The notes under the pieces: generated by a model | What the model was told of the DNA's origin: nothing | Database searches by the model: none | What the model saw: the letters and a program-made list of their open reading frames with translations, nothing else | Part shown: positions 5,592-26,787 of the stretch, in pieces | How positions within the stretch are numbered: the first letter of the stretch is position 1 | How the letters are laid out: every line of letters begins with the position of its first letter | IMG/VR virus record: IMGVR_UViG_3300045922_000517 | Coordinates: 1-26,787 of that record | DNA length: 26,787 nucleotides | Direction: 5' to 3' (one strand) | Source of the DNA: a virus | Program-made: the position numbers and the translations under genes

Positions 5592-8500
5592 TCATTGGTT
5601 TGCAGCCATTTGCCCGTCTTCAACTCCAAACGCGCTCCCGACCAGATTTTTCATCAGACTTTTGAGGTAGAAAAGGCTATGACCTGGCATGATTTTGCGA
5701 ATGGTTTCCGCTGTTTCCCTGTCTGAAACATCATTGTCCAGCATGACGCGGGCCACGTTGGCTACAGCACCCCCGACCGGCCCGGTCGCTTCGCCGACCA
5801 CATCTGCAACGTTGGGGTTGCGAATGAAAGGCTCAAGCCCGATAAGCGGCCTGATTCCGACTGTCCCCAGCGATGCTGTTTCAGCCATCGTGACAAGGTC
5901 AGAATAGACTCCTGTAATCCCGGATGCGTCTATGGCTCGCATCGCACGTTCTTCCGGGCTCATGTTGTCCCACCAATCGTCGTCAAGTTTCAGGGACTGG
6001 CTAAGATACCCCAGCCCGACAAGCGCCGCCATCCCGGCAACACTTGACCTGTCACGCCCTTGAAGACTGGACAGCAGGATGCGGTTGATTGCCCCGAAGC
6101 CGTAAGTCATGAACATGAACGGCAGGCGCAGCAGGGGATACTCGCGGCCTTTGACAAAGCCTTTTGCGATTTCCGGAATATCGGCAAGACCAGCTGTTGG
6201 CACGATGTTTTTGGTCATCCCGGCAACAGCCGTCAGGAACACACGCGCGGCGTCAGCGTCCGGCCACTCGCCCGCGTTTGGCAGGTAAAAGTCGCCCGCC
6301 TTTTCATAAGGTTGCCGGGCTATGCGTTGCGCCATCTCTTTGTCTATTCCATAGCTCGCAAGTATCGCGACAGTCTTGTTGTCCGCTTCGCCTTTTGCCA
6401 GCGCAAGGATGTCCTCAAGCATAAACTGGTGCGTGAACGTCGCGCTGATGCGTTTGGTGATGTCCGTGAACGGCGCAAGCAGGTTCAGAATAAAGTAAGG
6501 CCCGGTGGCAAAATTGGTCATTTGCTGACCGAACCTGCCGATTTTCGTGGTTGCCTCGCCGGTTGGGCCGCCTTGTTCCACAAAGCGGGCAAGCGCGGTT
6601 GACTGCACGCTGTCCAACCCTTGCAGCGTAAGATTGGCAATCCTTTTGCTGGCTTCCTTGAACTCGGCCTTTTGGCCAAACGCATAACGGCTGATCCCAT
6701 CAAATGTGCGGCTAAACCCGTGCACCATGAACATGCGCGCGACTTCGGGAATTGACGACAGCATGGCGCTGCCCAGATAGGTGATAACGCCGTAGGACGA
6801 CAGCGCGGAAGCAATCCGGCGCTGATTTACCAGCCCGGGTTCCATCTCGTAAATCTTGCCGGTCAACTTGTCGCGGGCGCGTTCCATCATTTCCCGCGCT
6901 TTGGCCATTTCTTCCAGCCCTTTCGCGACGTCATCCACGTCCATTTCGCGCGCGGTCTGGATGAGGATGTCGTCAATCGCGCTGCTTGCGTCTCCCTCGC
7001 CAAAGATGCGATAGATTTCGTTCGCGATCCCAAACCGCTCCGAATAAGTGCGGATAACCTTTTCAATGTCGGTCTCGATGAAAGGCAAAACATAGCTGTT
7101 CGGGATGTCGATCACACGCATTTTCAGAAAGCTTGCGCTTGCCTTTGGATTGAAAGCCTGAAACTCTCCCAGCTCAGCCTGCTGAATGATCGTGTTGATT
7201 GCCGCCTGGGCGCGTTTTTCTGGCGAGCCTGCATGTGCCCCACGCGGGTCAGGATGATTTCTGAACCAGTCTGCCAGAATTGCCCGCAACTGCTTTGGAC
7301 CGGCTTCATCTTCGAGGATTTTGTCGATGCGCCAGAACCGTGGCAGATAGTTGGGTTCGTTGCGCACAAATCCGCGCTCGCTTGCCAGCCGTTCGATTGT
7401 TTGCGCCATGTTTTTGAAATAGAACAGCTCGGCCTCGCTGAACTTCTCGTCGATGCTGCGCGCGTATTTGATTGCCGGATTTCCAAAATCTGGAGGAAAA
7501 TCAAGCTCGTGACGTTTCAACCTGTTGTTGTGCGCTTCTTCCAGAAGCGCGTCAGTCAGCTCCATTGTGCGCGACAGCAGGGTTTTTTCATCGCGCCCGC
7601 GAAAGCCTAGCAGTCTGGCGGCAAGCTCGACCAGCCTGTCCCACAGGCTCATGTTCTGCTTCCACGGTTGCTCTTTCAGCCACTTCTGGAAGGCGGGATT
7701 GGACAGGCTTTCCGCCATGAACTCGTCGATATTGGTCAGCCCATACCATTCGTCGCTTGTCGCGCGTTCCGACGCCTGAACGAACACATCGCGCAAATCT
7801 TCGACCAGTGCCTTGGCCTTGGGCGAGTCGGTCTGGCGCATCAAGAACCCAAACCGCTCGATCAGGGCGATGTGGGTTGCCTCATGAAGAAGCGCGTGAA
7901 CTCCCTGCGGGCTTTTGACCTGCCGCACAAACGCCACAGGAGAGCGCCCGGTGTTCCAGAAGTTGGCAAAGCCAAGAGAGTTTTTTCTCAGATTGTCTAC
8001 ACTCTCGTTGCCAACTACTACCCACACATCCCTTTTGATAATTTTTGCCAGTTTGTTGGCAATTTCCTTTTGCGCGTCCGTCATGTAGGATTGGACATCG
8101 GCATCCTGCAAAACGGAAATCAGCCTTTTCACATATGATTCGCTTTGGATATTTTCCGCGCTCGTTGTTTGTCCCGTCTGCGGGCGGCCCATCGGCTTTT
8201 CCGGCCCTTTGCCTTGACTGCGCAGACGGTCGTATTCGGCTAGTCGCGCTGAAATCTCATCCAGAAGCCGTTTTTGCTTCGCGCTGAGCGGGTAAGGCGC
8301 GTTTCTTAGCTCATCGGCGATGCGACGGTCACGTGCGATCATGCGATTGAGCACGTTCATCTGTCTGGCGTAGTCGACGCTTTCGACACGCGCCAGCACA
8401 TCGGTCAACTCTTCATTCTGTTCCAGAACAAGCCTGAACTCTTCCGCCAGCCATTTTGCGAGGTTTTCCCGTTTCTGTTTCCAGGCGTAAAGCTCCAGCT

Positions 8501-9890: not shown

Positions 9891-12712
9891 TATTTCATGA
9901 ACTCCTGTGCGAGCGCCCGGGCATATGGCAGACGCTTTCTGTAGGCTCCTTCCGGATCTTTGGGCCGCAGATAGTAGCGGATAAAGGCGCTCATTTTTTC
10001 CTCAATCGTATTGGCTTGCTGCATTGCCCGCCACGCTGCGCGATATTTTGTCCGCAGCTCGTAATTGATGAAATCGAGCTGTTCTTCGCGCGTCGCCTGT
10101 TCCATTGGCTTTCCATGGCGCTGCAAAAAAGCTTGCAGCCGGTCAAGCCGCCATTGGGCAATGCCTTTGGCCCATTGCGATGCATCTACGGGCTTGCCGT
10201 TGACAGTCTTGTCGCCGATTGCGTCGGGTTGCAGCATTACACCGCTTTCGCCCTGAAGGGCAGCCACGATGGCGATGCTGTCCATGCGGTCGATGTTCAA
10301 TCGGCGCAAGGTCATTATGGCGCTGCGCGAGACATCGTTAACCGCCTGTCTGTCGACGCCAGAGGGCGCATTGCGCATCATGCGTTCCTGTTCTTTCAAC
10401 TGGCGCATGATTGCGGGCGGAGCGTAATCCTCTTCCGTAATTTTTACGCCGGGATGCTTCCACGGTTTGCCCCACCCGGTTGTGATCGACGCGAGCAACA
10501 GGTTTTCGGGTGGAAAGCGCTTTTTGTGTTCTTCAAGCGCTTGCTGGTAAGCCTTTCGCGCCTCGGGGTTTCTTCCGCCGCCCGCTTGTCCGCCGATCAG
10601 TTTTTTTTGCAGTTGTGCCAGCGCCCGCTCGCTCTGGGCTCTGGCAACCCTGAAGCTCTGCACCTGCGTGTCGTAGGATTTTTGCGCCTTTCCAAGGTCT
10701 ACGATGATTGTGCCCCCGTCCTTGTCAAGCAGGGGCACGATCAGGCCGCTTTTGTCGCGGTCGTGATACATCAGGTTGAACAGGCGCGATCCGTTTGGTG
10801 TCTCGCCCACAAAACGGGTGCGCACATTCACGCCGAACTTGAGTTCTTCCGGTTTCTCGCTTTGCAGCACGATGTTCTGTTGCGGAGCAAGGCGGGTCTT
10901 GAGTGCGTGTTCGACCACGGCTTCGACCCATCTTTCGCCGACAATGCTGGTAGGGATGGCCTCCCGCTTGGGAACCCACCCGCCATAACGTGTGTCGCGG
11001 AAATCAATGATGTCAAAGACGCCTCTTTTTTCCAGCACCAGTGCCATCGAGACATCATAGGGGTTTTGCACCCAGTTGCCCTTGAACGCTGCGGCTGCCC
11101 GTTCAAGCGCCGCGTTGGGATTGATGTCCATCGCGACAAGGGTTGAGGCATAATCCAGCACCCATTCGCGGGCGCGATCTGTCAGAGCACCCCAAGGCGT
11201 TTCGATTGCCTTTGCAAAAATCGCGTCAAGTGCGGAGTCGTCAACGGCCTTGAACCTCTGTCGCAGCAATTCGCGCTGCGCGGGGCCATCCATGGCAATG
11301 CCCTTGTCGTAGACTTCGCGTGCCGCAAGCCTTGCCATGTCAGCTGGCAGACCGGCTTCCCGCTGCGCCAGATAGGCTTCCAGAAATCCTGCATCGGCGG
11401 CATCGAGGAACTCGCTCATGCGGTCCATTGCGATACCGTCTTTGCCGGGCAGGTTCTTGAGCGCGCCAATCAGGTTTTCGCTGGCCTGAAGCTTTTCCGA
11501 AGACCACGTGCTCAGGCCCTCGAACGCCTTTTTGTAAAGCAGCGTCGGCAAGCCTCCGAAGGCATTCTGGAAAATCTGCAACGCATTGGGAGAAAACGGG
11601 TCAAAGCCTTGGCGTTTGGCGAACTCGAGTGCGAGCTTTGCCTGCTTTTCCGGCGTGTCGGCATTGCCCCAGGTTCCCCAGCTCCAGTTTTCAAAATCGT
11701 AGTCGATGTCCTGCAACCGCTCGATTTCCGTTTCTTTGGCTTGTTTCTGCGCGACAACCGGAGCAACAATCTGTTCGACTCTTGCGCGCTCCTCGGCTGT
11801 TTGCAGCACCTCGAACAGTTTTTCCTGCGTGTAGCCCATTGCTACGGTGCCAGGCGGCGCGCTGCCGCGCAGCATGTTGACCAGGTCCTGGATTTCCAGC
11901 GAACTCATGCTGTCCTGTTCCTGACGGAACTGGAACACCACGGTTCCCACGCGGACATTCCCTTCCAGAATCGACCGCAATTGGTCGATGTCCTTTTCGT
12001 TGCCGAATCCCATGCTGATGCGGTCGCGGATAATTTGTTCCATCTCCTTCAGGAGCGTCGCGCTTTGCGCGATCACCGCGTCATTATCCGGCCCTAGTAT
12101 TTGCAGGGTTTCGTGCTTTTCCATGAGGCGCTTGAGGTCGTTCGAGCTTTGCCGATCAAAGTCGGCCAGAGTCTTGTTCAGGAACTGTGTTGAACGTCCC
12201 AGATGAAACTGGCGCAGCTCGCGCGTGCCGATTTCAAACATCGGCCCCTGCAACTCCGCAGGCACGCCAAGGATGTGCCCCTTGACGATTGCCTGGGCGC
12301 TTTCGAACATCTCTTCGGGCGTCATCCCGGCATTTTCGGGATCTGAATAGAAGTTGGCCAGTTTCAGTTCGAGCGCATGGGCGCTTTCGCGAATGAACTG
12401 GTTTTTTGCCGCGTTGTCGTAGGCTTCGCGATACAGCACCCCGCCTTTTTCGGCTTTTGGCAGAATGGGATTGCCTTCTTCGTCCTTGCCCAATCCGTCG
12501 GCGGCAAAATCGGCAAGCCCCTGATCGATGGCCTTCTTGCGCAGGTAAGGCTCTGCTGTTCGAAGAAAAGTTTCACTGAGCCCAAAAAGCATCTCACTCA
12601 CATTGCGTGAATGGTTCCTTGAATCCAAACCATAGGGGCTGACAAGCTGCGTGCTTGCGCCCTCGCGCGCGTCCAACAATCTGGTTCGTTGCAGATAGGG
12701 CTCGATTGCCAT
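9890..12712 (-). CDS. Internal virion protein with C-terminal lysozyme-like domain
   Basis: The 940-residue protein occupies the T7 gp15 position. Most of it is helical and charged. The last ~130 residues contain IVAALQGESGVMLQPDAIGD, with candidate catalytic glutamate E822, followed by KGIAQWRLDRLQAFLQRHG; that GIAQW...R pattern is typical of phage tail lysozymes (Phage_lysozyme2-like). It would open the peptidoglycan locally so the ejected tube can cross the periplasm. The N-terminus (SPYGLDSRNHSRNVSEMLFGLSETFLRTAEPYL) begins a helical scaffold. Its stop shares one base with the start of the gp16-like gene. The enzymatic domain is at the C-terminus of the gp15-like protein, unlike T7, where it is the N-terminus of gp16. 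Confidence 0.8.
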   Translation of the reverse strand: MAIEPYLQRTRLLDAREGASTQLVSPYGLDSRNHSRNVSEMLFGLSETFLRTAEPYLRKKAIDQGLADFAADGLGKDEEGNPILPKAEKGGVLYREAYDNAAKNQFIRESAHALELKLANFYSDPENAGMTPEEMFESAQAIVKGHILGVPAELQGPMFEIGTRELRQFHLGRSTQFLNKTLADFDRQSSNDLKRLMEKHETLQILGPDNDAVIAQSATLLKEMEQIIRDRISMGFGNEKDIDQLRSILEGNVRVGTVVFQFRQEQDSMSSLEIQDLVNMLRGSAPPGTVAMGYTQEKLFEVLQTAEERARVEQIVAPVVAQKQAKETEIERLQDIDYDFENWSWGTWGNADTPEKQAKLALEFAKRQGFDPFSPNALQIFQNAFGGLPTLLYKKAFEGLSTWSSEKLQASENLIGALKNLPGKDGIAMDRMSEFLDAADAGFLEAYLAQREAGLPADMARLAAREVYDKGIAMDGPAQRELLRQRFKAVDDSALDAIFAKAIETPWGALTDRAREWVLDYASTLVAMDINPNAALERAAAAFKGNWVQNPYDVSMALVLEKRGVFDIIDFRDTRYGGWVPKREAIPTSIVGERWVEAVVEHALKTRLAPQQNIVLQSEKPEELKFGVNVRTRFVGETPNGSRLFNLMYHDRDKSGLIVPLLDKDGGTIIVDLGKAQKSYDTQVQSFRVARAQSERALAQLQKKLIGGQAGGGRNPEARKAYQQALEEHKKRFPPENLLLASITTGWGKPWKHPGVKITEEDYAPPAIMRQLKEQERMMRNAPSGVDRQAVNDVSRSAIMTLRRLNIDRMDSIAIVAALQGESGVMLQPDAIGDKTVNGKPVDASQWAKGIAQWRLDRLQAFLQRHGKPMEQATREEQLDFINYELRTKYRAAWRAMQQANTIEEKMSAFIRYYLRPKDPEGAYRKRLPYARALAQEFMK

Positions 12713-17865: not shown

Positions 17866-18656
17866 CTTTTGCCGCCGTATTTTTTCCTGAAGAACTCCTC
17901 GACCCTGGCAACCACAGCCGGATCGCGCTTTTGCGGGTGATAGTAGGCCGGAGTGTTCATGATCTTGCGAACATCGGCTTCGGTCAGCTCCGGCTCCTTT
18001 TCCGGCGGATCGCCAGCACCCGTGTCAATGTCGCGCGTGAGTTCCATGAGTTTTTCGAGCGCGCGCACGCCAGCGGCATCGACAGCCATGCGTTGCAGCG
18101 CTGCAAACTCTTCGGTGTCCGCTCCAAGCACCTTTTGCGCCCACAGAGCCACGGCCTGCGTGCGGGCCACCGCATTGTCTCCAAGCTTGGCCATTTCGGC
18201 TTCACGCTGGGCTTCCATGCGTCTGATTTCGGTTTCAACATATTCGTTGATGACAGCTTCGAACTGTTCCTGCCCAAGCCCCGCCTCATAGGCGGCCTTG
18301 CGCCACAACTGCACGATGGGCGAGGCCGCCAGCGCTTCGGGATCGAGCGCCTCGTTTTCGGGCAGGGTATAGCTGTCCGGCGTTTCCGGGCGCGCTGCCA
18401 GACGCTCGGCCTCCCACTTGGCCTTCAGCTCCTCGATGTTGCTGCGCCCTTTCTCAAGCTCGACATAGGACTTGGCCAGATTCTCGACATTCGGAGCCTT
18501 GGCTTTGCTGTCCCAGAACTTTTCCGGCAGCCACTCCGGTCTGGTGGGCTCTGCCGGTGCCGTGGACTTTTGCTCTTGCGCGGCAGATTCCTGCGTCTTG
18601 GATGCCTGACCGGCAGGCGCTTCCTGCACTGCTTCCTGCACCGCTTTCTCACTCAT
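17862..18656 (-). CDS. Capsid scaffolding protein
   Basis: The 264-residue protein is acidic and helical, with a low-complexity Gln/Ala/Glu-rich N-terminus. RPEWLPEKFWD (about 39-49) and NVENLAKSYVELEKGRSNIEEL (about 56-77) are hallmark stretches of podovirus scaffolding (capsid assembly) proteins. The C-terminus is basic (VEEFFRKKYGGKR), as needed for capsid binding. It would guide procapsid assembly and leave before packaging. It overlaps the 93-aa gene by 4 bp (ATGA) upstream and the acetyltransferase by 4 bp downstream. Location between portal and capsid genes agrees with T7 gp9. Confidence 0.9.
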   Translation of the reverse strand: MSEKAVQEAVQEAPAGQASKTQESAAQEQKSTAPAEPTRPEWLPEKFWDSKAKAPNVENLAKSYVELEKGRSNIEELKAKWEAERLAARPETPDSYTLPENEALDPEALAASPIVQLWRKAAYEAGLGQEQFEAVINEYVETEIRRMEAQREAEMAKLGDNAVARTQAVALWAQKVLGADTEEFAALQRMAVDAAGVRALEKLMELTRDIDTGAGDPPEKEPELTEADVRKIMNTPAYYHPQKRDPAVVARVEEFFRKKYGGKR

Positions 18657-18934
18657 TGTCTTGCTCTCCTTTTGTGTCCGCGATTGACGCGGGTTTCAAT
18701 GATCGCCACCAGCGAGCGCATTCCCTCACGGTGTCTCAGGTGGGCGTCGGTTATGTCTGGCCCGGCCACGAGTTCGATGGTAATGGACCTGAGGTAGCGC
18801 AAGAACTCTTTGCCGGAACCGCGCCCAAATGTTGCCAGCGCCAGTTCGTCCAGTCTTTCGTCTTCTTCTGTCGTCCATTCCAGCCCTTCTGGCCCGATTA
18901 CCTTAGCCGAGCGGGATTGCTGCCTGTCCGCCAC
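18653..18934 (-). CDS. Small conserved head-module protein, 93 aa
   Basis: The 93-residue protein overlaps the portal gene's 3' end by 32 bp and the scaffold start by 4 bp. Its middle, ATFGRGSGKEFLRYLRSITIE, and the C-terminal HREGMRSLVAIIETRVNRG, faintly recall small phage proteins of the Bbp19 type found between portal and capsid genes; this is a memory-based resemblance only. The C-terminus is strongly basic. A head-assembly accessory role is suggested by place. The long overlap with the portal gene indicates strict co-translation. Confidence 0.7.
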   Translation of the reverse strand: MADRQQSRSAKVIGPEGLEWTTEEDERLDELALATFGRGSGKEFLRYLRSITIELVAGPDITDAHLRHREGMRSLVAIIETRVNRGHKRRARQ

Positions 18935-20480
18935 TTATCGCTCCTGTATCCATACCGGCCTGCTGAAGCTGCGCAATCTGCGCCGCAATCTGCTCCCGTT
19001 CTGCCCGGTTGCGGTTCAGCCTGGCCGGAACTCCGAACCTTTCGCGCAGATAGTTGGCAGTCTCTTCCTGGTTGATCATCAACTGCGCAAGCTGCGGCCC
19101 GAAATGCTGGTTGATCATCATCAGATAGTTGTTCACCGCATTGATGTCCTCGACCGCCTGCGCCTGCGACAGCGGGCTGGTTGACACAACCTTGATTTCC
19201 CGTCCATTGACCGCCGGAAGCACGATCCGGTTCTGCTTGCGCAGAATCCACACCACCCGTTGCACCACGCGGTTGACAAACTCGACCTGCAACCGCCCGA
19301 AAGCCGCTCCAATCTGGCGCGACAGATCAGCCATCCGCTGCGCAACCTCCGTCGCGCTCATCGGCGTCTTGTCCGGCGTGCCCAGCATCTCGTTGAACAG
19401 CGCCCGCTTGATGTTGGTGCGCATGTCCGAAAGCACAATCTGTGACACATCGAACGATCCGGCCGCAGGGACAGGACGCAAACCGCTTGAACCCGGCGCA
19501 ATCGGCAAAATCGTGCCGGGCATCAGCCGCACATTGTCAACCGAAAGCACTCCATCATCCTCGGCAGTGTAAATCCCCGAAATTGCCATCTCGGCATTTT
19601 CGAGAATCATTTGCATCACAAGGTTGACAGTTCGCACCGCAGGCAACGCATTGAAGAGCGGCCCGCGCCCCCACACCTCGCCGGTTGCTTTCGACCACCT
19701 GAACCCGATAAACCGTCCCGAACCGATCCCGCGATACTCGCGCTCAAGCAACGGCGCTTCTTCAGGATGATCGGGAAGGAACAGAACCAGTCTGTTTACC
19801 TCCTCGTTTTTCACTTCAAAATCCCGATAGACCGCAATGACCACGGTCACTTCCGGATCATCCTCGATCTGCCCCGCCTTTTCCTTCCGCAACTTGTCCT
19901 TCAGCGCTTCGGGAAGCCGGGCACCGGGAAAAGCCGTCTCGATATGGCTCAAACGGAGTTTCCGGCTGCGAAAATAGCTGGCGATCTCGTCCATTGGACC
20001 CGTGTCAATCGCCAGCTCGGGCAATGGCACAGCAGAAAAAATCACCGGATTGACAGCATCACCTTCGGCCACATCCATGCAGGCCGTGCCCAAAGCAATG
20101 TCCAGAAAACACTCGTTCGTCTCTTGCGAGAAGTTCGAGTTGTCAATCACATCCTGAACCTGCTTTGTCACCTCCTCAAGCGCGGCATTGACCTCATCGA
20201 CCTCATCCGGCGGAATGTCGCTGCCAGCCTGCAAACTGATGAAACGCCCGTAATTGGGCACAAGTCCCGCCTGCAACCGGCTGGCAAACTCCTGAACCGC
20301 CACAATGGCCGTCTCATCGAAGATTTCGGGAGCTTCCCGGCCCGCACTGCGCTCGAAAAAACTGGTTCGCCCGGGCAAAGCGTAATCATAGCAGTCCTGA
20401 TAGCCGCGTTCCCAAGGCTGCCGCTTCAGCAACGCGCGCTTGTAGCGCGCTACCAGCTTTTTCGTGACTTCGCTCATCAA
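18903..20480 (-). CDS. Portal protein (head-tail connector, gp8-like)
   Basis: The 525-residue protein matches T7-like connector proteins. Its N-terminus includes KRQPWERGYQDCYDYALPGR (about 19-38). Near residue 60 is VAVQEFASRLQAGLVPNYGRF, then FDVSQIVLSDMRTNIKRALF and the helical MSATEVAQRMADLSRQIGAA (about 380-400, the channel-lining crown region). The C-terminus is Gln/Gly/Ala-rich. It forms the dodecameric portal through which DNA enters and leaves. It is followed by the 93-aa protein with a 32-bp overlap. Two starts are possible (MM at the N-terminus). Length is close to T7 gp8 (536). Confidence 0.92.
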   Translation of the reverse strand: MMSEVTKKLVARYKRALLKRQPWERGYQDCYDYALPGRTSFFERSAGREAPEIFDETAIVAVQEFASRLQAGLVPNYGRFISLQAGSDIPPDEVDEVNAALEEVTKQVQDVIDNSNFSQETNECFLDIALGTACMDVAEGDAVNPVIFSAVPLPELAIDTGPMDEIASYFRSRKLRLSHIETAFPGARLPEALKDKLRKEKAGQIEDDPEVTVVIAVYRDFEVKNEEVNRLVLFLPDHPEEAPLLEREYRGIGSGRFIGFRWSKATGEVWGRGPLFNALPAVRTVNLVMQMILENAEMAISGIYTAEDDGVLSVDNVRLMPGTILPIAPGSSGLRPVPAAGSFDVSQIVLSDMRTNIKRALFNEMLGTPDKTPMSATEVAQRMADLSRQIGAAFGRLQVEFVNRVVQRVVWILRKQNRIVLPAVNGREIKVVSTSPLSQAQAVEDINAVNNYLMMINQHFGPQLAQLMINQEETANYLRERFGVPARLNRNRAEREQIAAQIAQLQQAGMDTGAISGGQAAIPLG

Positions 20481-20496
20481 AAACCTTTACAAAGGG

Positions 20497-20895
20497 CTAA
20501 CGTTCGTAAACATTTCCCGACCACCAGCCGCCGTAACCACCACCAGCCTGGCCCGCATTGCCACCGCCCATTGCAGCCCCAGTCCCCGAAACCAGAGACT
20601 GGCCCGGCGGAAGCAACAACGTCGAGGAACTCCCCACACGCCTGAACCTGCGCCCCTTCTGTCCGCGCGCGCCAGCTCCCAAAAACCCCGCACCACCCTT
20701 CGGACCGCTGATCAGCGACCGGTTTCCAACAAATCCAAGCGCACGAGCCAGCGCAGCCTCCGTCTGCGCCTCTTTCTCAGCCGCCAGCTCACGCTCAAGC
20801 TGCGCCCTGCGCGCAAGACGCGCCTCCTCAAGCTCCTTCTCGCGCTCAATATCCTCTTGCGTCTTCGGCGGCAGTTTCGGCTTCTTGAAACACAT
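20497..20895 (-). CDS. Small Cys-Phe-start phage protein
   Basis: I place the start at ATG 20895 (MCFKKPKLPPKTQEDIE), with a GGGAG about 10 nt upstream, rather than at the longer frame's start at 20967, which overlaps the terminase gene. The ~132-residue product has an N-terminal Cys, a proline stretch, a charged helix (EREKELEEARLARRAQLERE) and then a Gly/Ser/Arg-rich tail with GNRSLISGPKGG and GRRFRRVGSSSTLLLPPG. Proteins beginning MCFxKPK with a downstream R-S-L motif are frequent in podovirus head modules; the function is not known to me. It may act in head completion or portal assembly. Confidence 0.65.
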   Translation of the reverse strand: MCFKKPKLPPKTQEDIEREKELEEARLARRAQLERELAAEKEAQTEAALARALGFVGNRSLISGPKGGAGFLGAGARGQKGRRFRRVGSSSTLLLPPGQSLVSGTGAAMGGGNAGQAGGGYGGWWSGNVYER

Positions 20896-20935
20896 CGCTG
20901 TCACACTCCCTTCTTCCCCAATTTCCCCCATCCGA

Positions 20936-22471
20936 CTAACCGAACCGCCCGAATGACCGCCGCGCAACCCGGCTTACCCGCGCAAATACGTCTCTTGCCT
21001 CCCTCTTTACCACGGGTTTCTGGCCTGCACCATCGCCAATCAGCAACTTCCGGCTCTCCCCACCCCCACAAAGCAGATATTGCAGCGCATCATGCACATG
21101 CGAATACCTGTTCTTCTCCGGCAAACTCTCATATCTCTCCCCGGAAATCTGCAAACGCCGATAGTGATACCCGCCGGCAAACCCACGACGCAGCATTACA
21201 CAGCTCGGATCAAGCAGAAAACCCGCCTGCCCATCCACCATCCGCGTCAAACAGGTCTCAACCGCACCAATCCGAACAGCAGGATCATTGCTCGGCGCCG
21301 CTCGCGCCTTGATCCCCGCCGCCCTCAGCAACTGAAACGGCGTCGCCTCATCCGTCTGCGCCCGATAATCCCCCGCTGGATCACCCCAGATCACAAACTT
21401 CTCCGCCGGAACACCAGGAAACTCCTGCGCCATAAACTTGCGCAGCACATCAGCAAACTTCACCGTCCCCATGTCCTGCGCCACAAGCTCACGCAACACC
21501 AGCCAACGACCACGAACATGCTGCGCAAACACCGCACTCGGCGTCAAACCAAAATCCAGCCCCACAAAAACCGGCAACCCCTCCGCTACCAGCAACGGCT
21601 CCCTCGCAACATGCAACTCTTCCTTGAAATCCGGATAAACCGGCTTGCCATCCGACAAACTCCCAAGCTGATTCAGCACATAAACCGAAATCCAGCTCCG
21701 CGTCTTCCCCGCAATTATCCTCGGATAATAATCCGGCGTCAGATTCTCCTGATTCTCCGCCTCCGGATTCAAATCATAACCAACCACCTCCCCATCCGCA
21801 TCCCTGCGCTCAACCATCCCGCCAGGCTGATTAAAAAACTCCCAGCCCTCAGGCTTGATCAGCATCATCGCCTCTTCGCGGCCAATATGATCGGGAATCG
21901 GCGCTTCCCCAGCCATGATCGGCCACCAATGATCATCATCCGGCGCATTGGTGTCCATAATCACACCATACCAGCTCGGACCACCATCCTTCATCGACGG
22001 ATAACGACCAACCCGCATCGTCGTCGCATCAACAATCGACTTCGGAACCTCCCGCGCCTCGTTAATAAACGCCCCCGTCAACTCCAGCGACAACAGCTTC
22101 TTCACATCCTCCGGACGATCCAACGCCAGAAAAATCACCTCAAGATCAAGACGACCACGCCGAATATGATGCGTAAACGGCGGCGACCAGTTGAACTTCC
22201 CCCAAACCTCCTCCGGAAACCAGTCCAACCACGTCTTGATCGTCGTCGTCCTCAACTGCGGATTCGTATTCCGTATCACCGCCCACCGACTGCGCCTCAC
22301 CCCATCCGCACCAGGCTCCTGCTCCAACGCCCGCCGAAATATCTCAACACAACAACAAACCGACTTCCCACTCCCAACAGGCCCCCGTATCCCACGAACA
22401 AACGCATCAGACTTCATAAAAGCCCGCAACACAGAACCACCAGGCTTGTAATTCAACGAAAACCCACTCAC
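20936..22471 (-). CDS. terL: Large terminase (packaging ATPase-nuclease)
   Basis: The 511-residue protein is the DNA-packaging motor. The Walker A motif GPVGSGKS is at 30-37; the Walker B-type strand TGAFINEA at 132-139 has catalytic E138, with Asn where Asp is usual. The nuclease half shows VGLDFGLT (D306), WGDPAGD (D364/D368) and HDALQYLL (D461), the acidic residues of an RNase H-like headful/cos nuclease. It overlaps the 62-aa gene by 4 bp. Third codon positions are strongly G/T-biased here, unlike the small terminase gene upstream. Length is typical for T7-like to HK97-like large terminases. Confidence 0.93.
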   Translation of the reverse strand: MSGFSLNYKPGGSVLRAFMKSDAFVRGIRGPVGSGKSVCCCVEIFRRALEQEPGADGVRRSRWAVIRNTNPQLRTTTIKTWLDWFPEEVWGKFNWSPPFTHHIRRGRLDLEVIFLALDRPEDVKKLLSLELTGAFINEAREVPKSIVDATTMRVGRYPSMKDGGPSWYGVIMDTNAPDDDHWWPIMAGEAPIPDHIGREEAMMLIKPEGWEFFNQPGGMVERRDADGEVVGYDLNPEAENQENLTPDYYPRIIAGKTRSWISVYVLNQLGSLSDGKPVYPDFKEELHVAREPLLVAEGLPVFVGLDFGLTPSAVFAQHVRGRWLVLRELVAQDMGTVKFADVLRKFMAQEFPGVPAEKFVIWGDPAGDYRAQTDEATPFQLLRAAGIKARAAPSNDPAVRIGAVETCLTRMVDGQAGFLLDPSCVMLRRGFAGGYHYRRLQISGERYESLPEKNRYSHVHDALQYLLCGGGESRKLLIGDGAGQKPVVKREARDVFARVSRVARRSFGRFG

Positions 22472-22656
22472 TCAACACCAGCCTTCCGTGCAGCCCTCAA
22501 CGTCCTCTCAATCACCCTCTCCGAAAAACTATCCACCAACTTGTCCGCCTCATAATCCGTCAAAAACTCCGACGGATAATACCGCAAATGAACCCTCTTC
22601 ACATACTCCCGCAACCTACGCCTGTCCGCAGGCCTCAATAACCCAGAAAAACCCAT
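22468..22656 (-). CDS. Hypothetical 62-aa protein upstream of large terminase
   Basis: The protein (MGFSGLLRPADRRRLREYVKRVHLRYYP, then DYEADKLVDSFSERVIERTLRAARKAGVE) is basic, helical and without membrane segments. It starts right below the repeat-rich gap and overlaps the large terminase start by 4 bp (ATGA), so it is probably co-translated with it. Its G/T-rich codon ends match the large terminase. I do not recognise a family; a terminase accessory or DNA-binding role is possible from charge and place. Confidence 0.65.
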   Translation of the reverse strand: MGFSGLLRPADRRRLREYVKRVHLRYYPSEFLTDYEADKLVDSFSERVIERTLRAARKAGVE

Positions 22657-22726
22657 CTCACCTATCTCCTCAAATGCATATCTGCCACAGAACCTTCAGC
22701 GCCAAAATGCTTGAGAGGGTTCTCTC

Positions 22727-22758
22727 GGGGGGTCAAGGGGGGTAATTTTTGACCCCCC
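22727..22758. repeat. 10-bp inverted repeat with competing G6/C6 pairing
   Basis: GGGGGGTCAA (22727-22736) and TTGACCCCCC (22749-22758) are perfect inverted copies around a 12-base loop. The loop itself contains GGGGGGTAATTT, so the C6 arm can pair with either G6 tract, giving two mutually exclusive hairpins. There is no clear U-tract after the stem on either strand, so a simple terminator is not certain. Confidence 0.75.
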
Positions 22759-22781
22759 TCCCCTGCCGCAACGTTCTGCCA

Positions 22782-22849
22782 GCCGAGAGCTCGCAGGCTG
22801 AGCATCTGTTGCCCAGGCAGGGGTGCTGTCTTGCCGAGAGCTCGCAGGC
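22782..22849. repeat. Two 17-bp direct repeats, 51 bp apart
   Basis: GCCGAGAGCTCGCAGGC occurs at 22782-22798 and 22833-22849. Each copy holds the small dyad CGAG-AG-CTCG. The copies are 51 bp apart, about five helical turns, so bound proteins would face the same side. They lie next to the terminase genes, so a terminase or regulator binding site is possible. Confidence 0.8.
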
Positions 22850-22863
22850 AAACAGCATCATCC

Positions 22864-22892
22864 GGGGTGGGGACTCTCTCTCGGGGTGGGGG
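22864..22892 (+). other. G-quadruplex-capable motif
   Basis: Four G-tracts of four or more lie on the plus strand at 22864-22867, 22869-22872, 22883-22886 and 22888-22892, with loops of 1, 10 and 1 bases. It also reads as a direct repeat of CGGGGTGGGG. Such tracts can fold into a quadruplex when single-stranded. Confidence 0.6.
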
Positions 22893-22972
22893 CAGACCTC
22901 TCACCAAAAGCCCACCGGAACCCATCACAACAGATGGCAAGGTGTGAAGACAAGCCCAAGTCAATCCAGAAG

Positions 22973-23353
22973 CTAGCTCAGGTCAATGTTGATGCTTATG
23001 TCACCAGTGATACTATGACTGTGCTTGTCTACAGGCTTCAACCCAGCACGATCAAGTAAATCCTTGGCAGCTTCTAGCCGAACATACTCGCTTTTAGCTT
23101 CAAGAAGACTCTTGAGAGTTGCTTGTGCTTTTGGAGCGTTTGCGATGAAGTTGGTTAGGGTTGCTTCTAGGATGGCGTGCATTACGTGTGGTATTTTAAT
23201 GAGGTCATAGGCTTGTTCGCGGGCTGTTTTTGGGGAGTATCCTGCGGTGATGGCGGCTTGTGTTTTGTTTCCGCCGTTGGTTACAAGTGCTTTGACGAAG
23301 GCGGCTTGTTTTTCGGTGAGTTTGGATTCTGTGTTTGGTGAGATGAGGTTCAT
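22973..23353 (-). CDS. terS: Small terminase subunit
   Basis: The 126-residue protein has the terminase-small (Terminase_2-like) signature: LTEKQAAFVKALVTNGGNKTQAAITAGYSPKT in one block (about 12-43), which is the DNA-binding HTH region, then YDLIKIPHVMHAILEA and a helical oligomerisation part. It recognises the packaging site and recruits the large subunit. The leader upstream of ATG 23353 is C/A-rich with no visible Shine-Dalgarno. Codon third positions are A/C-rich over the first two-thirds and shift to mixed G/T in the last third, unlike any neighbour. A 316-bp gap separates it from the 62-aa gene and the large terminase. Confidence 0.88.
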   Translation of the reverse strand: MNLISPNTESKLTEKQAAFVKALVTNGGNKTQAAITAGYSPKTAREQAYDLIKIPHVMHAILEATLTNFIANAPKAQATLKSLLEAKSEYVRLEAAKDLLDRAGLKPVDKHSHSITGDISINIDLS

Positions 23354-23414
23354 ATTGGTGGCTTAGGTGTTGGTGGTTTGGGATTAGGTGAGTGGCGCGC
23401 GCGCGCGAGGTTGG

Positions 23415-23443
23415 AGATTTGGCGTGTTTGTTTTTGTTGTCAA
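23415..23443 (-). promoter_or_regulatory. Candidate leftward promoter for the terminase/late block
   Basis: On the minus strand TTGACA (23443-23438) is followed 17 bases later by AAATCT (23420-23415). The -35 is perfect and the -10 weak. It would start transcription about 60 bp upstream of the small terminase ATG. Activation by a phage factor would be expected for late genes; none is visible. Confidence 0.35.
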
Positions 23444-23597
23444 TGGACTAAGTGTAAAGGGTTGATTTTGTTGGGCAATGCCTTCGGCCCGCGCTCTTGC
23501 GCGTCGCGCTTTGCGCTCCGCGTGGAGCCGCTTTGCGTCTCCACCCTTCGGGCTTCGATCGCTATTGCGGGCGGGCCTTTGCTTGCGCTACGGCCCG

Positions 23598-23618
23598 GGC
23601 GCTACCGCGCCGTTTTTT
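23598..23618 (+). terminator. Rightward rho-independent terminator-like hairpin
   Basis: GGCGC (23598-23602), loop TACC, GCGCC (23607-23611), then G and six T (23613-23618). A GC stem followed by a T-tract is the usual intrinsic terminator form, though the stem is short (5 bp, slightly extendable). It faces right, so it would stop rightward transcripts coming from the terminase gap, where no rightward gene is evident. Confidence 0.5.
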
Positions 23619-23692
23619 GTTTGTGGTGGTGGCTTGGCATGGGGTGCGCGGGGCGCACCCCGTTTTGGATGGTATTTCGGCTTTGCCGAAGT

Positions 23693-23790
23693 GCGGTGTC
23701 AAGGATCGTGGGGCCCCACGATTTTTTGGCAAAAATCGTTACCCCCACGCCCGCGGTGCGGCGCGCCTTGGGGCGCGTCCTTGACACCGC
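23693..23790. repeat. Nested palindrome element with 13-bp inverted repeat ends
   Basis: GCGGTGTCAAGGA (23693-23705) and TCCTTGACACCGC (23778-23790) are perfect inverted copies that frame 72 bp. Inside lie an 18-bp perfect palindrome ATCGTGGGGCCCCACGAT (23705-23722), an overlapping hairpin CGATTTTT-TGGC-AAAAATCG (23719-23738), and GCGCC-TTGG-GGCGC. A second CCCCACG at 23743-23749 can compete for the CGTGGGG arm. The DNA could form a cruciform with branched arms. Function unknown. Confidence 0.8.
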
Positions 23791-23905
23791 GCTGCCGAGC
23801 GACGGCACCGGGGGACCGAACGATGGCGCGAACGAGCGAGCGCGCCCGCACCCGGCGCCCCGAGCGACCGAGCAAACGCGCCCGCGCGTGCCCAGCACTG
23901 CATTT

Positions 23906-23934
23906 TTGCATTGACATTATCCCCTTGATATGCT
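23906..23934 (+). promoter_or_regulatory. Candidate early rightward promoter
   Basis: TTGCAT (23906-23911) and TATGCT (23929-23934) are spaced by 17 bases; an overlapping TTGACA at 23911-23916 is a better -35 but badly spaced from TATGCT. Transcription would begin about 20 bp upstream of the first early gene's start. The CATTGACA string also occurs at the leftward promoter candidate, on the opposite strand. Confidence 0.4.
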
Positions 23935-23961
23935 AGGCCTTTAGAACCTATGGAGGACCAC

Positions 23962-24264
23962 ATGACCAATAGCAATCGTGACCCTGAAACCCTTGCCGCC
24001 CAGATCAAAGCGTGGGATTTGCACGACGTGCGCCAACTGCGCGATTTGCTTGTTCTATTTGAGGCGTGCCGCGATGAATTCGGCGGCCACATCAACGTTC
24101 AGCGTTACGTTGATTTTTCCAATCTGCCCTCGGCCTTGATCCCTGACGACATCGACACCGGCTATCCCGTGTGGGCTATGGATGTGCGGGGATACGCGCT
24201 GGTCGGCCTTGGCGCGCGCGACATCGAGCATGTCAATAAGATCCGCGACCGCTGCCGGTTCTGA
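23962..24264 (+). CDS. Early small protein, 100 aa
   Basis: I choose ATG 23962 (MTNSNRDPETLAAQ) because the GGAGG Shine-Dalgarno lies five or six bases before it; the upstream in-frame ATG (23950) overlaps that site. The protein is acidic, with a helical first half (IKAWDLHDVRQLRDLLVLFEACRDEFGG) and a second part with YPVWAMDVRGYALVGLGARDIEHVNKIR. No motif or membrane segment is recognised. It is the first gene of the rightward block and is followed by a structured repeat element, so it is likely an early-expressed accessory or host-takeover protein. Function not assignable. Confidence 0.75.
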   Translation: MTNSNRDPETLAAQIKAWDLHDVRQLRDLLVLFEACRDEFGGHINVQRYVDFSNLPSALIPDDIDTGYPVWAMDVRGYALVGLGARDIEHVNKIRDRCRF

Positions 24265-24318
24265 CAGCGGCGAGCGTGGCGGGTTGCTTCGGCGACCCAC
24301 CATCCCGCCTCTGGCGGA
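24262..24318 (+). repeat. 57-bp structured repeat, copy 1
   Basis: The element runs from the stop codon (TGACAG) of the first early gene toward the next ribosome site. Its last 45 bp are identical to copy 2. It can form GGGTTGC-TTCG-GCGACCC (24281-24298), a seven-pair stem with a UUCG tetraloop, then CCGCC-TCT-GGCGG (24305-24317). No T-tract follows. Possible roles: mRNA 3'-end protection, attenuation, or a site for recombination. Confidence 0.85.
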
Positions 24319-24340
24319 TGATGATGAGAGGAGGACTGAG

Positions 24341-24715
24341 ATGCGTATCACGATTTTTGACGGCATCTACGATGATCCCGCCCGTCTCTCGGCGGATGGC
24401 CGGACCGTCGAGCGGATGGACATCGACACGGGCGAGTGGCATCCGACGCCATACAGGGTCGGCGCTGTGGGCACACTGGAGCGGGCGCTGCATATCACAG
24501 ACGGCTGGGTCAAATACAGGCTGGATTTCTCTGGCAAGGGCATTCCTGGGAACAGCAACCCCCAGATTTGCCGCCATCACGGTTGGCGCGGGACGACGTG
24601 CGACGTCGAGGTGACTGCGCTCGGTGTGCGCCGGATCAAGTCTCTGCGCAAGCTCAAGCGTAGTGACGGCATCTCGGTCGAGCTGTCAGATGATCTCGCT
24701 CCCGATCTCCCCTGA
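24341..24715 (+). CDS. Repeat-bracketed early protein, 124 aa
   Basis: ATG 24341 is chosen because GAGGAGG lies just upstream; the open frame extends back to 24182 only through the previous gene and the repeat. The product starts MRITIFDGIYDDPARLSADG and contains GTLERALHITDGWVKYRLDF and ICRHHGWRGTTCDVEVTALGVRRIKSLRKLKR. It is mixed alpha/beta with a basic stretch near the C-terminus, without membrane segments. I do not recognise a family. It lies exactly between two near-identical 57-bp elements, so it may be an exchangeable cassette. Early expression and an accessory role are inferred. Confidence 0.75.
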   Translation: MRITIFDGIYDDPARLSADGRTVERMDIDTGEWHPTPYRVGAVGTLERALHITDGWVKYRLDFSGKGIPGNSNPQICRHHGWRGTTCDVEVTALGVRRIKSLRKLKRSDGISVELSDDLAPDLP

Positions 24716-24769
24716 CAGACGCGTGCGTGGCGGGTTGCTTCGGCGACCCACCATCCCGCCTCTGGCGGA
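24713..24769 (+). repeat. 57-bp structured repeat, copy 2
   Basis: Identical to copy 1 over the last 45 bp (24725-24769) and differing at three positions in the first 12. It also starts at a stop codon (TGACAG) and ends shortly before a Shine-Dalgarno. The same UUCG hairpin and second stem are present. The two copies are 451 bp apart and in direct orientation. Confidence 0.85.
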
Positions 24770-24793
24770 ATGTGCACCAACAGGAGAGATACT

Positions 24794-25129
24794 ATGCGCA
24801 TGATCAAGATTTCTGTCGGCAATGCCCTTAGTTTTGCCTTGCCCTGGAACGAGGAAACCGTTGCCCTTGCCGTCAAGCTGATCGGCAAACCGGTTTTTAT
24901 CGAGGAATACAAATCCACAAGTGTAACCGATTTTTCGCGCGTCTGGTGCAAGCCTGGCTCGGGCTGTTCTATTCAGATTATCGATCCGCACGATGTCTTT
25001 TATGGCACGATTGACGAATATCGCCGCCGGTCTGACCACGCCAGCCGCGCCGATTTGACCGCCGGGCAACAGCCTGCTGACGAACCCGATTGCGAAACCG
25101 CGTCGGTCGCCACCACCGATTGCGACTGA
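24794..25129 (+). CDS. Early small protein, 111 aa
   Basis: ATG 24794 follows an AGGAGAG site; an upstream in-frame ATG at 24770 has none. The product begins MRMIKISVGNALSFALPWNEETV, a beta-rich start, then FIEEYKSTSVTDFSRVWCKPG and IQIIDPHDVFYGTIDEYRRR. The C-terminal 30 residues are acidic and look disordered (QQPADEPDCETASVATTDCD). Four cysteines are present but in no evident metal motif. No family recognised. It follows the second 57-bp element and precedes the regulator region. Probable early accessory gene. Confidence 0.7.
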   Translation: MRMIKISVGNALSFALPWNEETVALAVKLIGKPVFIEEYKSTSVTDFSRVWCKPGSGCSIQIIDPHDVFYGTIDEYRRRSDHASRADLTAGQQPADEPDCETASVATTDCD

Positions 25130-25139
25130 AGTTTCGCGA

Positions 25140-25176
25140 CAAGGCCGGATGTCGCCCATCGCGGCACCCGGCCTTG
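25140..25176 (+). other. Hairpin upstream of the regulator genes
   Basis: CAAGGCCGG (25140-25148) pairs with CCGGCCTTG (25168-25176) over nine bases with a 19-base loop. There is no T-tract after it. It sits 10 bp after the previous stop and overlaps the -35 of the candidate promoter, so it may insulate the regulators from upstream transcription or be an operator. Confidence 0.5.
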
Positions 25177-25202
25177 AACACCCTGCACATTTGCACTATC
25201 AT
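25174..25202 (+). promoter_or_regulatory. Candidate promoter giving a leaderless mRNA
   Basis: TTGAAC (25174-25179), 17-base spacer, TATCAT (25197-25202). The ATG of the next gene begins 7 bases after the -10, about where transcription would start. No Shine-Dalgarno precedes that ATG. This layout is like the leaderless cI message made from lambda PRM. Confidence 0.5.
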
Positions 25203-25208
25203 CGTGCC

Positions 25209-25475
25209 ATGCAAATCGTCACCTATTTCGATCAGCTCAAAACTGCCGCGCGGCAGTTTGGCGACAATCCCGATCAAGTTCTGCTTCATGCCTTTGTCGA
25301 AGCAGGCTTGCCCACATCAACTTTTTACCGCGCCCGCAAGGGCACCGACCTGCGCGGTGACAAGGCAAGGCGCGTTGCACAGGTTTTGTTTAGTTGGGCA
25401 AAGGAAGGCGTCCCGCATGAATCGCGCGAACATCCGGAAACGTCCCCAGAAACGGACGCTGCCGCCGACACGTGA
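25209..25475 (+). CDS. Small HTH-like regulator, possibly leaderless
   Basis: I start at ATG 25209 (MQIVTYFDQLKTAARQFGDN) because a promoter-like sequence ends just before it and the longer frame (from 25149) would lie upstream of that promoter. The 88-residue product has a helical first part and FVEAGLPTSTFYRARKGTDLRG (about 30-55), which reads as a helix-turn-helix with a recognition helix at STFYRARKG. A helical segment (DKARRVAQVLFSWAKEG) and an acidic tail follow. It is likely a DNA-binding regulator of the early region. The 3' end overlaps the next regulator by 59 bp. No immunity region is proven. Confidence 0.6.
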   Translation: MQIVTYFDQLKTAARQFGDNPDQVLLHAFVEAGLPTSTFYRARKGTDLRGDKARRVAQVLFSWAKEGVPHESREHPETSPETDAAADT

Positions 25476-25689
25476 AGAGCGCGATTTCTATGCCCGACTG
25501 ATCGAGGCTTTGATTGAAACGCGCAAACGGCGCGGATTGTCGCAATCCGCGCTCGATGACATGATCGGCATAAGCGAGGGTTGCACCGCGAAATGGGAGA
25601 GTCTGGTGCGAATACCAGGCGCATTCTATCTGATGTGCTGGTGCAAGGCGCTTGGCGTGGAGATAGTTATCAGAGAGCGGAGACGGTAA
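25417..25689 (+). CDS. XRE-type HTH regulator, 90 aa
   Basis: ATG 25417 has a GGAAGG about nine bases upstream and lies within the previous gene in another frame. Residues ~22-75 form an XRE (Cro/C1-type) HTH: RDFYARLIEALIETRKRRGLSQSALDDMIG, then SEGCTAKWESLVRIPGAFYLMCWCKALGVEIVI. The LSQSALDDMIGIS block is the first helix-turn of the family. It could be a Cro-like or repressor-like protein, and its pairing with the preceding small regulator suggests a genetic switch. The stop (TAA) directly abuts the ATG of the DUF1064 gene, so the genes are co-transcribed. Confidence 0.75.
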   Translation: MNRANIRKRPQKRTLPPTREERDFYARLIEALIETRKRRGLSQSALDDMIGISEGCTAKWESLVRIPGAFYLMCWCKALGVEIVIRERRR

Positions 25690-26163
25690 ATGCCAAGACG
25701 GGTCCAGGGCGCAACCGAAAAAAGTCCTTATCGCCTGAGCAAACGGGCTATCTTGCGCGCCCGAAAATTGCGCGGCGAACTGCCGCCGCCTAGGAAACGA
25801 CGCAACAAATACAACAGCAAAGGTATCTGGATCGATGACATTTACTTTGCCAGCAAGGCCGAAGGCGAGCGCTATCGACAGCTTAAGGCTATCGAGGCAA
25901 CGGGAATTATCACGCGCCTGGAACTGCAACCGTCTTGGTCGGTCGTGGTCAACAACAAACTCATCTGCCACTATCGCGCCGACTTTCGCTATGACGTAAT
26001 CGATGATCGCGGAACGGTGTTAAAACAGGTCGTCGAGGACGTCAAAGGCGTGCCCAACGCGCTTTACAAGCTGAAGAAAAAACTGATCGAGGCGACGCAT
26101 GGCGTTCACATCATGGAGATTCCCGCCGCGCTGATCGACAAGTGGTGGAACCGCCTTCCATGA
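25690..26163 (+). CDS. DUF1064 / PD-(D/E)XK-like endonuclease-type protein
   Basis: The 157-residue protein matches the DUF1064 pattern found in phages: KYNSKGIWIDDIYFASKAEGERYRQL (about 40-65), then LELQPSWSVVVNNKLICHYRADFRYDV and VVEDVKGVPNALYKLKKKL. Candidate nuclease residues are E58/E60, D98 in RADF, and the E116/D117-x-K119 of EDVKG. The N-terminal 40 residues are very basic. It would process phage DNA branches or ends, but the activity is not established. The start is immediately after the preceding stop with GGAG upstream. Its stop overlaps the initiator ATG (ATGA). Confidence 0.75.
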   Translation: MPRRVQGATEKSPYRLSKRAILRARKLRGELPPPRKRRNKYNSKGIWIDDIYFASKAEGERYRQLKAIEATGIITRLELQPSWSVVVNNKLICHYRADFRYDVIDDRGTVLKQVVEDVKGVPNALYKLKKKLIEATHGVHIMEIPAALIDKWWNRLP

Positions 26164-26787
26164 GCAGCGAGACAATCGTTTGGGCTAAGCAGCAGGCTTG
26201 CGGCGATCCCGTGACCAAGGCGGTGTTGCTGGAAATCGCCAACCAAGCGCGGCCCAACGGGGTGTGCGACTATCTTTCGGTCAGGCGGATTGCCGAGGTG
26301 GTCGAGGTCTCGGTGCGCACGGTGCAGCGCCACATCGCCCTGCTTGAGAGCTCTGACCTCACCCGCGGCGGGCTGGGGCTGATCCGCCGGATCAAGCGCT
26401 ACCGCGAGGATGGCGGGCGCTATGCCAATGCATTCGAGCTGGTGGGCTATCAGCCGCCGCTTTCGCTCGGCGCGCGCCCCCGCGACAATTTGTCACCCCC
26501 CCCTGACAATTTGTCACCCCCCCCTGACAATTTGTCACCCCCCCCTGACAATTTGTCACCCCCCCCTGACAGATTGACGGGGACCCCCATGACAAATTGT
26601 CACCCCTTACATAACACTAATGACATGGGAAAGAACATAAATCTACCCTATGACACTAATGACAGGGGAGAGAATATAAATATGAATATAAATATAACCC
26701 CCCCCCCATCTCCTTACGGAGATGGCCCCCCCCCCTTGGAGCGGCGCGCGAGACGCGAACTTGAACCCGACTGGCGTCCCGACGAGC
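26160..26787 (+). CDS. Winged-HTH replication initiator, origin inside gene (partial)
   Basis: ATG 26160 overlaps the previous stop by four bases. The open frame continues to the window end (209 codons visible). Residues ~5-98 read as a winged-helix DNA-binding domain: QQACGDPVTKAVLLEIANQA, VCDYLSVRRIAEVVEVSVRT, VQRHIALLESSDLTRGGLGL (helix-turn-helix about 40-62), and RRIKRYREDGGRYANAFELV. From residue 109 the protein carries DNLSPPP four times, encoded by the iterons, and then an Asn-rich linker encoded by AT-rich DNA. This layout parallels lambda O: N-terminal origin-binding domain, linker over the iterons, C-terminal helicase-recruiting part (beyond the window). The other option is a plasmid-type Rep protein. 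Confidence 0.8.
   Translation, partial: MSSETIVWAKQQACGDPVTKAVLLEIANQARPNGVCDYLSVRRIAEVVEVSVRTVQRHIALLESSDLTRGGLGLIRRIKRYREDGGRYANAFELVGYQPPLSLGARPRDNLSPPPDNLSPPPDNLSPPPDNLSPPPDRLTGTPMTNCHPLHNTNDMGKNINLPYDTNDRGENINMNINITPPPSPYGDGPPPLERRARRELEPDWRPDE
26484..26602 (+). repeat. Iterons: four 21-bp repeats plus two related copies
   Basis: The unit GACAATTTGTCA + C8 + T is repeated exactly at 26484, 26505, 26526 and 26547 (each 21 bp, two helical turns). A degenerate copy starts at 26568 and TGACAAATTGTCA lies at 26590-26602. Each core is a dyad, TGACAA-T-TTGTCA (first copy starts C instead of T). TGACA half-sites recur at 26621, 26651 and 26660. They read in frame as DNLSPPP. Confidence 0.9.
26607..26699 (+). 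other. AT-rich tract beside the iterons (candidate unwinding element)
   Basis: I count 28 G/C in these 93 bases (about 30%), against a GC-rich surrounding. It includes ATAAATATGAATATAAATAT. It directly follows the iterons, as the AT-rich region follows the four lambda ori iterons. Rifts of this type open first at an origin. Confidence 0.7.
26706..26725 (+). other. Hairpin flanked by C-runs within the initiator gene
   Basis: CCATCTCC (26706-26713), loop TTAC, GGAGATGG (26718-26725) form a perfect eight-pair stem. It is flanked by long C-runs on both sides. It may be part of the origin (single-strand start site) or just mRNA structure. Confidence 0.55.

Follow-up and report, generated by a model that had tools for sequence, protein, structure and literature searches.

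A strand-composition switch around a fixed site in the small terminase gene of a phage

The window analysed here is the whole of a 26,787-base virus record (IMGVR_UViG_3300045922_000517), an incomplete genome record of an uncultured phage; long contigs of relatives reach 30-39 kb. Its late genes, coding for the small terminase subunit (terS), a 62-aa protein, the large terminase subunit (terL), the portal, the major head protein and tail proteins, are found on the minus strand, and its early genes, beginning at about 23.95 kb, on the plus strand. Within terS the strand composition of this DNA reverses abruptly near codon 80, at a point (23110-23116) from which the G/T-rich strand runs 5' to 3' outward on both sides. 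This strand asymmetry around a fixed DNA site is real and unusual, and it is explained only in part. Most likely it records a site at which phage DNA is either cut again and again or begins to be copied. We propose, with a probability of roughly 0.36, that phage DNA is repeatedly cut at this point in terS, most likely by the terminase at a pac-like packaging start, and that the ends are resected and resynthesised. A literature search found no report of such a switch, although one in a subscription journal could be missed.

Results

The gene split by the switch, terS (22973-23353, minus strand, 126 aa), was assigned by Pfam (Terminase_2, E=6.5e-13) and PHROGs (terminase small subunit). G or T is found at 3 of 44 four-fold degenerate sites in its codons 1-80 and at 14 of 17 in codons 81-126 (Fisher p=1.7e-8). 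Segmentation of 20.4-24.4 kb, for which the Bayesian information criterion favoured four segments, placed breaks at 22710, 23115 and 23685, with G+T fractions of 0.35, 0.49, 0.71 and 0.50, and the position of the switch was derived from this together with the four-fold sites. The largest jump in G+T at a scale of 300 bp over positions 1-23400 was 0.27 and was equalled in 0 of 500 redraws, in which every protein was kept and codons were drawn from unskewed genes. A first-pass annotation had drawn attention to the reversal from hand counts at 22081-22140 (C23 A19 T10 G8) and 23221-23280 (G24 T23 C10 A3), both of which are exact, and its statements that the G/T-rich strand points outward both ways and that gene direction cannot account for the bias were borne out. 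Codons of terL indeed end mostly in G or T (G280 T170 C41 A21), but the A/C endings ascribed to the whole of terS prevail only in codons 1-80 (C37 A36 T5 G2). Likewise, the abrupt inflection exists but lies at about 23,113, within terS and slightly to the right of the 22.98-23.09 kb proposed. Nor is the flip clean, as the stretch at 22.71-23.11 kb is intermediate in composition. This 0.49 segment comprises the 3' part of terS, itself already leaning to G/T when read in the gene's sense, together with a repeat-rich spacer that holds a conserved element; we read the spacer as constrained sequence and hence place the switch at about 23,113. The spacer between terS and terL also holds two perfect 17-bp direct repeats (GCCGAGAGCTCGCAGGC) at 22782-22798 and 22833-22849.

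The switch takes no more than about 60 bp, all of it in a single intact gene, and the bias then fades over kilobases. Genes to the left of 18 kb have a four-fold composition of roughly A.16 C.35 G.35 T.15. As compared to this baseline, the values are A.04 C.07 G.63 T.26 in terL (20936-22471, minus strand), and the G/T fraction is 0.96 in the gene for the 62-aa protein (22468-22656, minus strand; a homologue is found at 77 of 80 terL loci), 0.77 in the small gene after terL (20497-20967, minus strand) and 0.66 in the portal-like head-tail adaptor gene, where the bias fades (18903-20480, minus strand). In 300-bp bins leftward from 22.7 kb, the minus-strand four-fold G/T fraction is 0.97, 0.98, 0.85, 0.96, 0.93, 0.72, 0.80, 0.61, 0.70, 0.68, 0.65, 0.77, 0.56 and 0.44. 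Leftward of the switch the bias holds near 0.9 for about 1.9 kb and is back at baseline about 5 kb out. A fade linear with distance (three parameters, negative log-likelihood 1926.4) describes this better than one step per gene (1931.0) and meets the baseline at a distance of 4.9 kb, at about 18.2 kb, in agreement with the earlier remark that the bias is gone by about 18 kb. The first half of terL is more biased than the second (0.93 versus 0.84, p=0.03), and the portal halves show no trend (0.65 versus 0.68). The right arm (23115-23685 by segmentation, plus-strand G/T 0.71) comprises the 5' part of terS and non-coding DNA, which is biased as well (A19 C11 G51 T46 at 23354-23480), and the bias stops near 23,685 in a GC-rich, hairpin-rich stretch. 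The non-coding DNA between the divergent early and late genes (23490-23930) is GC-rich with hairpins, its left half being poor in A and its right half poor in T.

The bias is also seen at sites that change the protein. At codon positions 1 and 2, terL is the G/T-richest of its homologues (rank 110 of 110, z 5.3) and the part of terS coding for residues 1-79 the least G/T-rich (rank 1 of 63, z -4.7); the same positions are unshifted in the genes for the portal, the major head protein and a tail protein. Because these positions are shifted too, with terL and terS moving in opposite directions, the pressure is on the DNA and not on codon choice; with the bias of non-coding DNA added, synonymous codon choice can be dismissed as the cause. 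Codon selection or adaptation to tRNAs is excluded for the same reason, as positions 1 and 2 move like synonymous sites. The first-pass annotation had also considered a recently acquired terS with its own codon bias, for which the absence of the flip in related phages would speak. Relatives mostly lack the flip. A recent acquisition of terS as a cassette is nevertheless excluded, since the gene itself contains the switch and a homologous full-length terS is present in 62 distinct members of the group, counting the window; moreover, non-coding DNA is biased likewise.

A terL search yielded 80 loci and, with a second terL search and searches with the N-terminal part of terS and in bacterial genomes, 166 loci with a long terL match, which were reduced by shared k-mers to 110 distinct ones, 62 of them with a complete terS (window included in both counts). 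A portal search in viral contigs gave just 3 loci, and a PDB sequence search with terL gave no match up to E=1. Over the 110 distinct loci, the mean four-fold G/T fraction of terL is 0.53 (standard deviation 0.08), and values above 0.7 are restricted to the window (0.89) and the four members of one clade (L015, L017, L019/L101 and L099; 0.71-0.83), hereafter the L015 clade. Of the 71 rows of a terL tree, the unskewed L003 is nearest to the window, whereas the L015 clade stands near the unskewed L009, L013 and L016, with weak support. Since the window and the L015 clade are separate in this tree, the bias seems, judging from the sequences compared, to have arisen at least twice.

The onset in the L015 clade is likewise at terS, and the bias there fades over several kilobases. 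In L017, the four-fold G/T fraction is 0.43 in the first part of terS (neutral to A/C-leaning), 0.68 in its last part and 0.95 in the next gene. Among the sequences compared, a strong reversed arm on the terS side is found in the window only, and milder contrasts between the N- and C-terminal parts of terS are seen in L184, L182, L080 and L017. In L184, a contig of a Rhodobacterales metagenome-assembled genome, the values are 0.31 for the N-terminal part, 0.62 for the C-terminal part and 0.67 for terL. A strong effect throughout the family is excluded, as the mean profile of 58 representatives is nearly flat with or without the skewed ones. In 57 unskewed relatives the two parts of terS differ slightly (0.485 versus 0.533, p=0.012), which is at most a weak echo of the switch, and across relatives the bias of terL and that of the N-terminal part of terS are uncorrelated (Spearman 0.06, n=64).

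In six sequences of the L015 clade, derived singletons at synonymous third positions of terL and the portal gene comprise 66 changes from A/C to G/T and 71 in the reverse direction, the majority base being taken as ancestral, which biases such counts. This is as expected at equilibrium, and the bias in this clade is thus ongoing and not a relic. Per site, the rates of most types of change, transversions included, lean to G/T (C>T 44/660 versus G>A 36/1314; A>T 10/186 versus T>A 4/1128), with the exception that A>G is not raised (5/186, against 36/1314 for G>A and 24/1128 for T>C). The more distant comparison comprised three sequences only and gave no counts, and hence provides no control. Deamination alone is insufficient to explain the pattern, as GC content is unchanged and transversions lean to G/T as well.

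Two conserved signals are found close to the switch. The first lies in terS codons 86-89 (AKSE; 23087-23098, minus strand), where a DNA signal may be embedded in the coding sequence. In 52 sequences, third-base identity at codons 87-89 is 0.71, 0.70 and 0.83, with 0.50, 0.45 and 0.56 expected; this excess synonymous conservation sits 7-9 codons past the switch, and phylogeny alone could give part of it. The second, found by alignment and with a position weight matrix, is an intergenic element 3' of terS (22676-22765, minus strand) with a fixed spacing of a G-run, AAAAA, about 45 nt, a T-rich block and AAGGTTC. The matrix was built from those 32 of 53 aligned copies (window included) that have the A-run at the fixed distance. 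It matched one place in 17 of the 21 chosen loci scanned, eight of the 17 being outside the training set; three of the four misses are loci without terS-side sequence and the fourth is the distant BcepC6B. The element is kept in most relatives examined across a wide range of genome GC contents. Since it is single-copy in the scanned sequence and located between terS and terL, this suggests that it is a candidate packaging signal or late promoter; because unskewed relatives that were scanned have it too, it is not by itself the cause of the bias. In 15 of 52 representatives, paired G-tracts (two runs of at least 6 G, 2-7 nt apart) precede terS codon 87 by about 285-356 nt (for example at L017:7837-7851, with further cases in front of terS in L015, L055 and others), and contig starts pile up near them, perhaps due to sequencing dropout.

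A gene for a lambda-O-like replication initiator, truncated at the contig end, is located at 26148-26786 on the plus strand (PHROGs replication initiation, E=1e-10). Inside it are 4.6 copies of a 21-bp palindromic iteron (26477-26571, plus strand), next to an AT-rich tandem block (26672-26697), and 26477-26697 thereby has the layout of a lambda-type origin. Because of this combination of O-like initiator gene, iterons and AT-rich block, the replication origin is likely at about 26.5 kb. Similar repeats are found in or near the initiator gene of L094, L100 and L009; in L098, initiator-associated repeats were not found. No Rfam family reached the gathering score in 18000-26787. Elsewhere in the window, two long virion-protein genes (8250-11000) show a plus-strand AT skew down to -0.40 and no GC skew.

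Discussion

The switch is point-like, the G/T-rich strand points outward on both sides, the fade over kilobases ignores gene borders and all classes of sites are affected, and for these reasons we infer that DNA is repeatedly handled at one place. The first-pass annotation had read the polarity as that of a bidirectional origin or a physical genome end. The former does not agree with a bias that is back at baseline by 23.7 kb and by about 18.2 kb, and is thus not found along both genome arms, nor with the O-like initiator and iterons at 26.48-26.70 kb; the location would suit a physical end or a packaging cut. Terminase cutting would be the simplest known event at this position. We hypothesize that the terminase cuts repeatedly at the start of packaging, in a pac-like manner, inside terS at about codon 80. 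At each new end, the strand with its 5' end at the cut would be eaten back and then resynthesised or otherwise handled unequally, and over time the reworked strand, the very one that is G/T-rich in the window, would gain G and T and lose A and C. Such an effect would peak beside the cut and decay with distance, over a greater length towards terL than in the other direction. Enzymes suited to such processing, a RecE-like exonuclease and an Erf-like annealing protein, are encoded in the contig of L017 and in L009. The onset of the bias at the same gene in the separate L015 clade, the synonymous conservation just past the switch and the origin candidate elsewhere also speak for a cut.

Several observations weigh against a packaging cut. 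L009 is unskewed, so that the exonuclease and annealing genes do not explain why the skew is restricted to certain lineages, and the window's own copies of these genes were not seen in its incomplete record. Most relatives share the gene order, and most of those examined the conserved element, and yet lack the bias. In the L015 clade most types of change, including transversions, lean to G/T, unlike what is expected from a pure deamination or G-T mispair model, and GC content at third and four-fold positions is unchanged (0.70 in terL, about 0.7 elsewhere). Contigs, including the window, pass through the site unbroken. Contig starts are enriched inside terS, and 5 of the 29 that fall in the range from -80 to 400 cluster at codons 80-84, but this clustering is without significance once the choice of interval is taken into account. 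Lastly, nothing comparable is seen at the genes tested in the reference phages P22, lambda and T7, whose packaging sites or ends are known and in which the four-fold G/T fraction of terL is 0.57, 0.59 and 0.65, and because these phages show no such skew our confidence in a cut is modest.

Contig ends as proof of a physical end are weak, as the early cluster at codons 80-84 shrank when more loci were added and adjoins a conserved stretch. The long contigs of relatives have no common end, their starts and ends being scattered over the map, which would suit circularly permuted, terminally redundant virion DNA but concatemeric DNA in the cell as well, and 12 of 12 records looked up are classed as linear without end repeats. 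A fixed terminal repeat of about 400 bp, corresponding to the neutral zone at 22,710-23,115, is possible, but its other boundary has no support from contig ends, and the zone holds the conserved element and is perhaps constrained.

We also considered a replication start at 23.1 kb, either a second origin or a nick for rolling-circle or strand-displacement replication, from which the displaced strand would be single-stranded longest near the start and gain G and T. Replication leaving a point both ways has the polarity observed, the fade fits a limited single-stranded time, and a nick would suit the one-sided bias of the L015 clade. Nevertheless, a replication origin at the switch is unlikely because the lambda-O-like initiator has its iterons at 26.48-26.57 kb (with the repeats of L094, L100 and L009, but not L098, in line with this). 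Furthermore, no iteron array is found at 22.6-23.2 kb, so that initiator and iterons are not at the switch, and the right-hand bias is over by 23.7 kb.

Divergent transcription at the terS/terL junction, with mutation of the exposed non-template strand, would likewise give the outward polarity, and we regard it as improbable. It would combine a leftward late promoter, for which the conserved element upstream of terL is a candidate, with a rightward RNA through terS to the hairpins at about 23.6-23.7 kb, where terminator-like hairpins are present on the plus strand (23.60-23.67 kb). The G/T bias, however, begins at 23,113, some 350 bp before the element, so that two back-to-back promoters inside terS would be needed, and neither of the 2 promoter-like sites in 20400-24100 (1.5 expected) is near the switch. 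The bias also decays within the late operon instead of tracking it. No better placed is selection that acts on the DNA strand itself close to a site of packaging or recombination and favours, for instance, single strands that are unstructured or preferred by a recombinase. In its favour, GC content is kept although the strand bias is extreme, transversions are affected too and the L015 clade stands at equilibrium (66 changes to G/T and 71 away from it); against it, the bias extends to amino-acid-changing sites, which would be costly under selection, and close relatives lack it. Finally, the sharp edge inside terS resembles a recombination joint, but it is very unlikely that the 5' part of terS and the DNA upstream of it were acquired, along with their composition, from another phage, as no comparable A/C-ending 5' part is found in the relatives compared (the next lowest G/T among the values listed is 0.26 and 0.31, against 0.07), non-coding DNA is biased too and terL has its own opposite gradient.

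Going further than a packaging cut in the window, one might speculate that fixed DNA ends or nicks arising when packaging starts produce a strand-asymmetric substitution gradient strong enough to remodel both the codons and the protein sequence of the flanking genes, that the site can be read from composition alone and that this came about separately in two lineages at one and the same site in terS; as a whole, we hold this generalisation to be somewhat doubtful. If the skew does record DNA ends or nicks, end processing would be mutagenic, and the packaging sites of uncultured phages could be found from composition alone. In addition, with the element between terS and terL, a large group of uncultured phages has a definite candidate for a packaging signal or a late promoter.

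In P22, pac lies inside the terS gene according to a review (PMC9611059). It is annotated at 4-25 of NC_002371 with gene 3 starting at 41461, and therefore covers about codons 90-97 of P22 terS. The window resembles P22 in that its candidate site lies in the same part of terS, directly before terL, and in that an Erf-like protein is encoded in the window's group. It differs in that P22 has no strand-composition switch in the genes tested, and in the window a pac function with headful packaging is a candidate reading. The closest deposited relative by terL (65.7%), Pelagibacter phage EXVC031P Hodr (OQ414635), has the same order of terS, element and terL but lacks the strong switch, the four-fold G/T fractions of the N- and C-terminal parts of its terS being 0.51 and 0.67.

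In mitochondria, single-strand exposure gives gradients in which A and C are both lost from one strand depending on distance. In contrast, the window keeps its GC content and transversions are involved, and strand-displacement replication is hypothetical for it. At bacterial and phage replication origins, G exceeds C and T exceeds A on the strand leading away from a point, and strand skew is usually taken as the trace of such an origin. Compared to this asymmetry, the skew of the window is local (about 5 kb on one side and 0.6 kb on the other), two-sided and near-saturated (97% versus 4-10%), alters protein sequence besides codons and is centred in a packaging gene, away from the likely origin.

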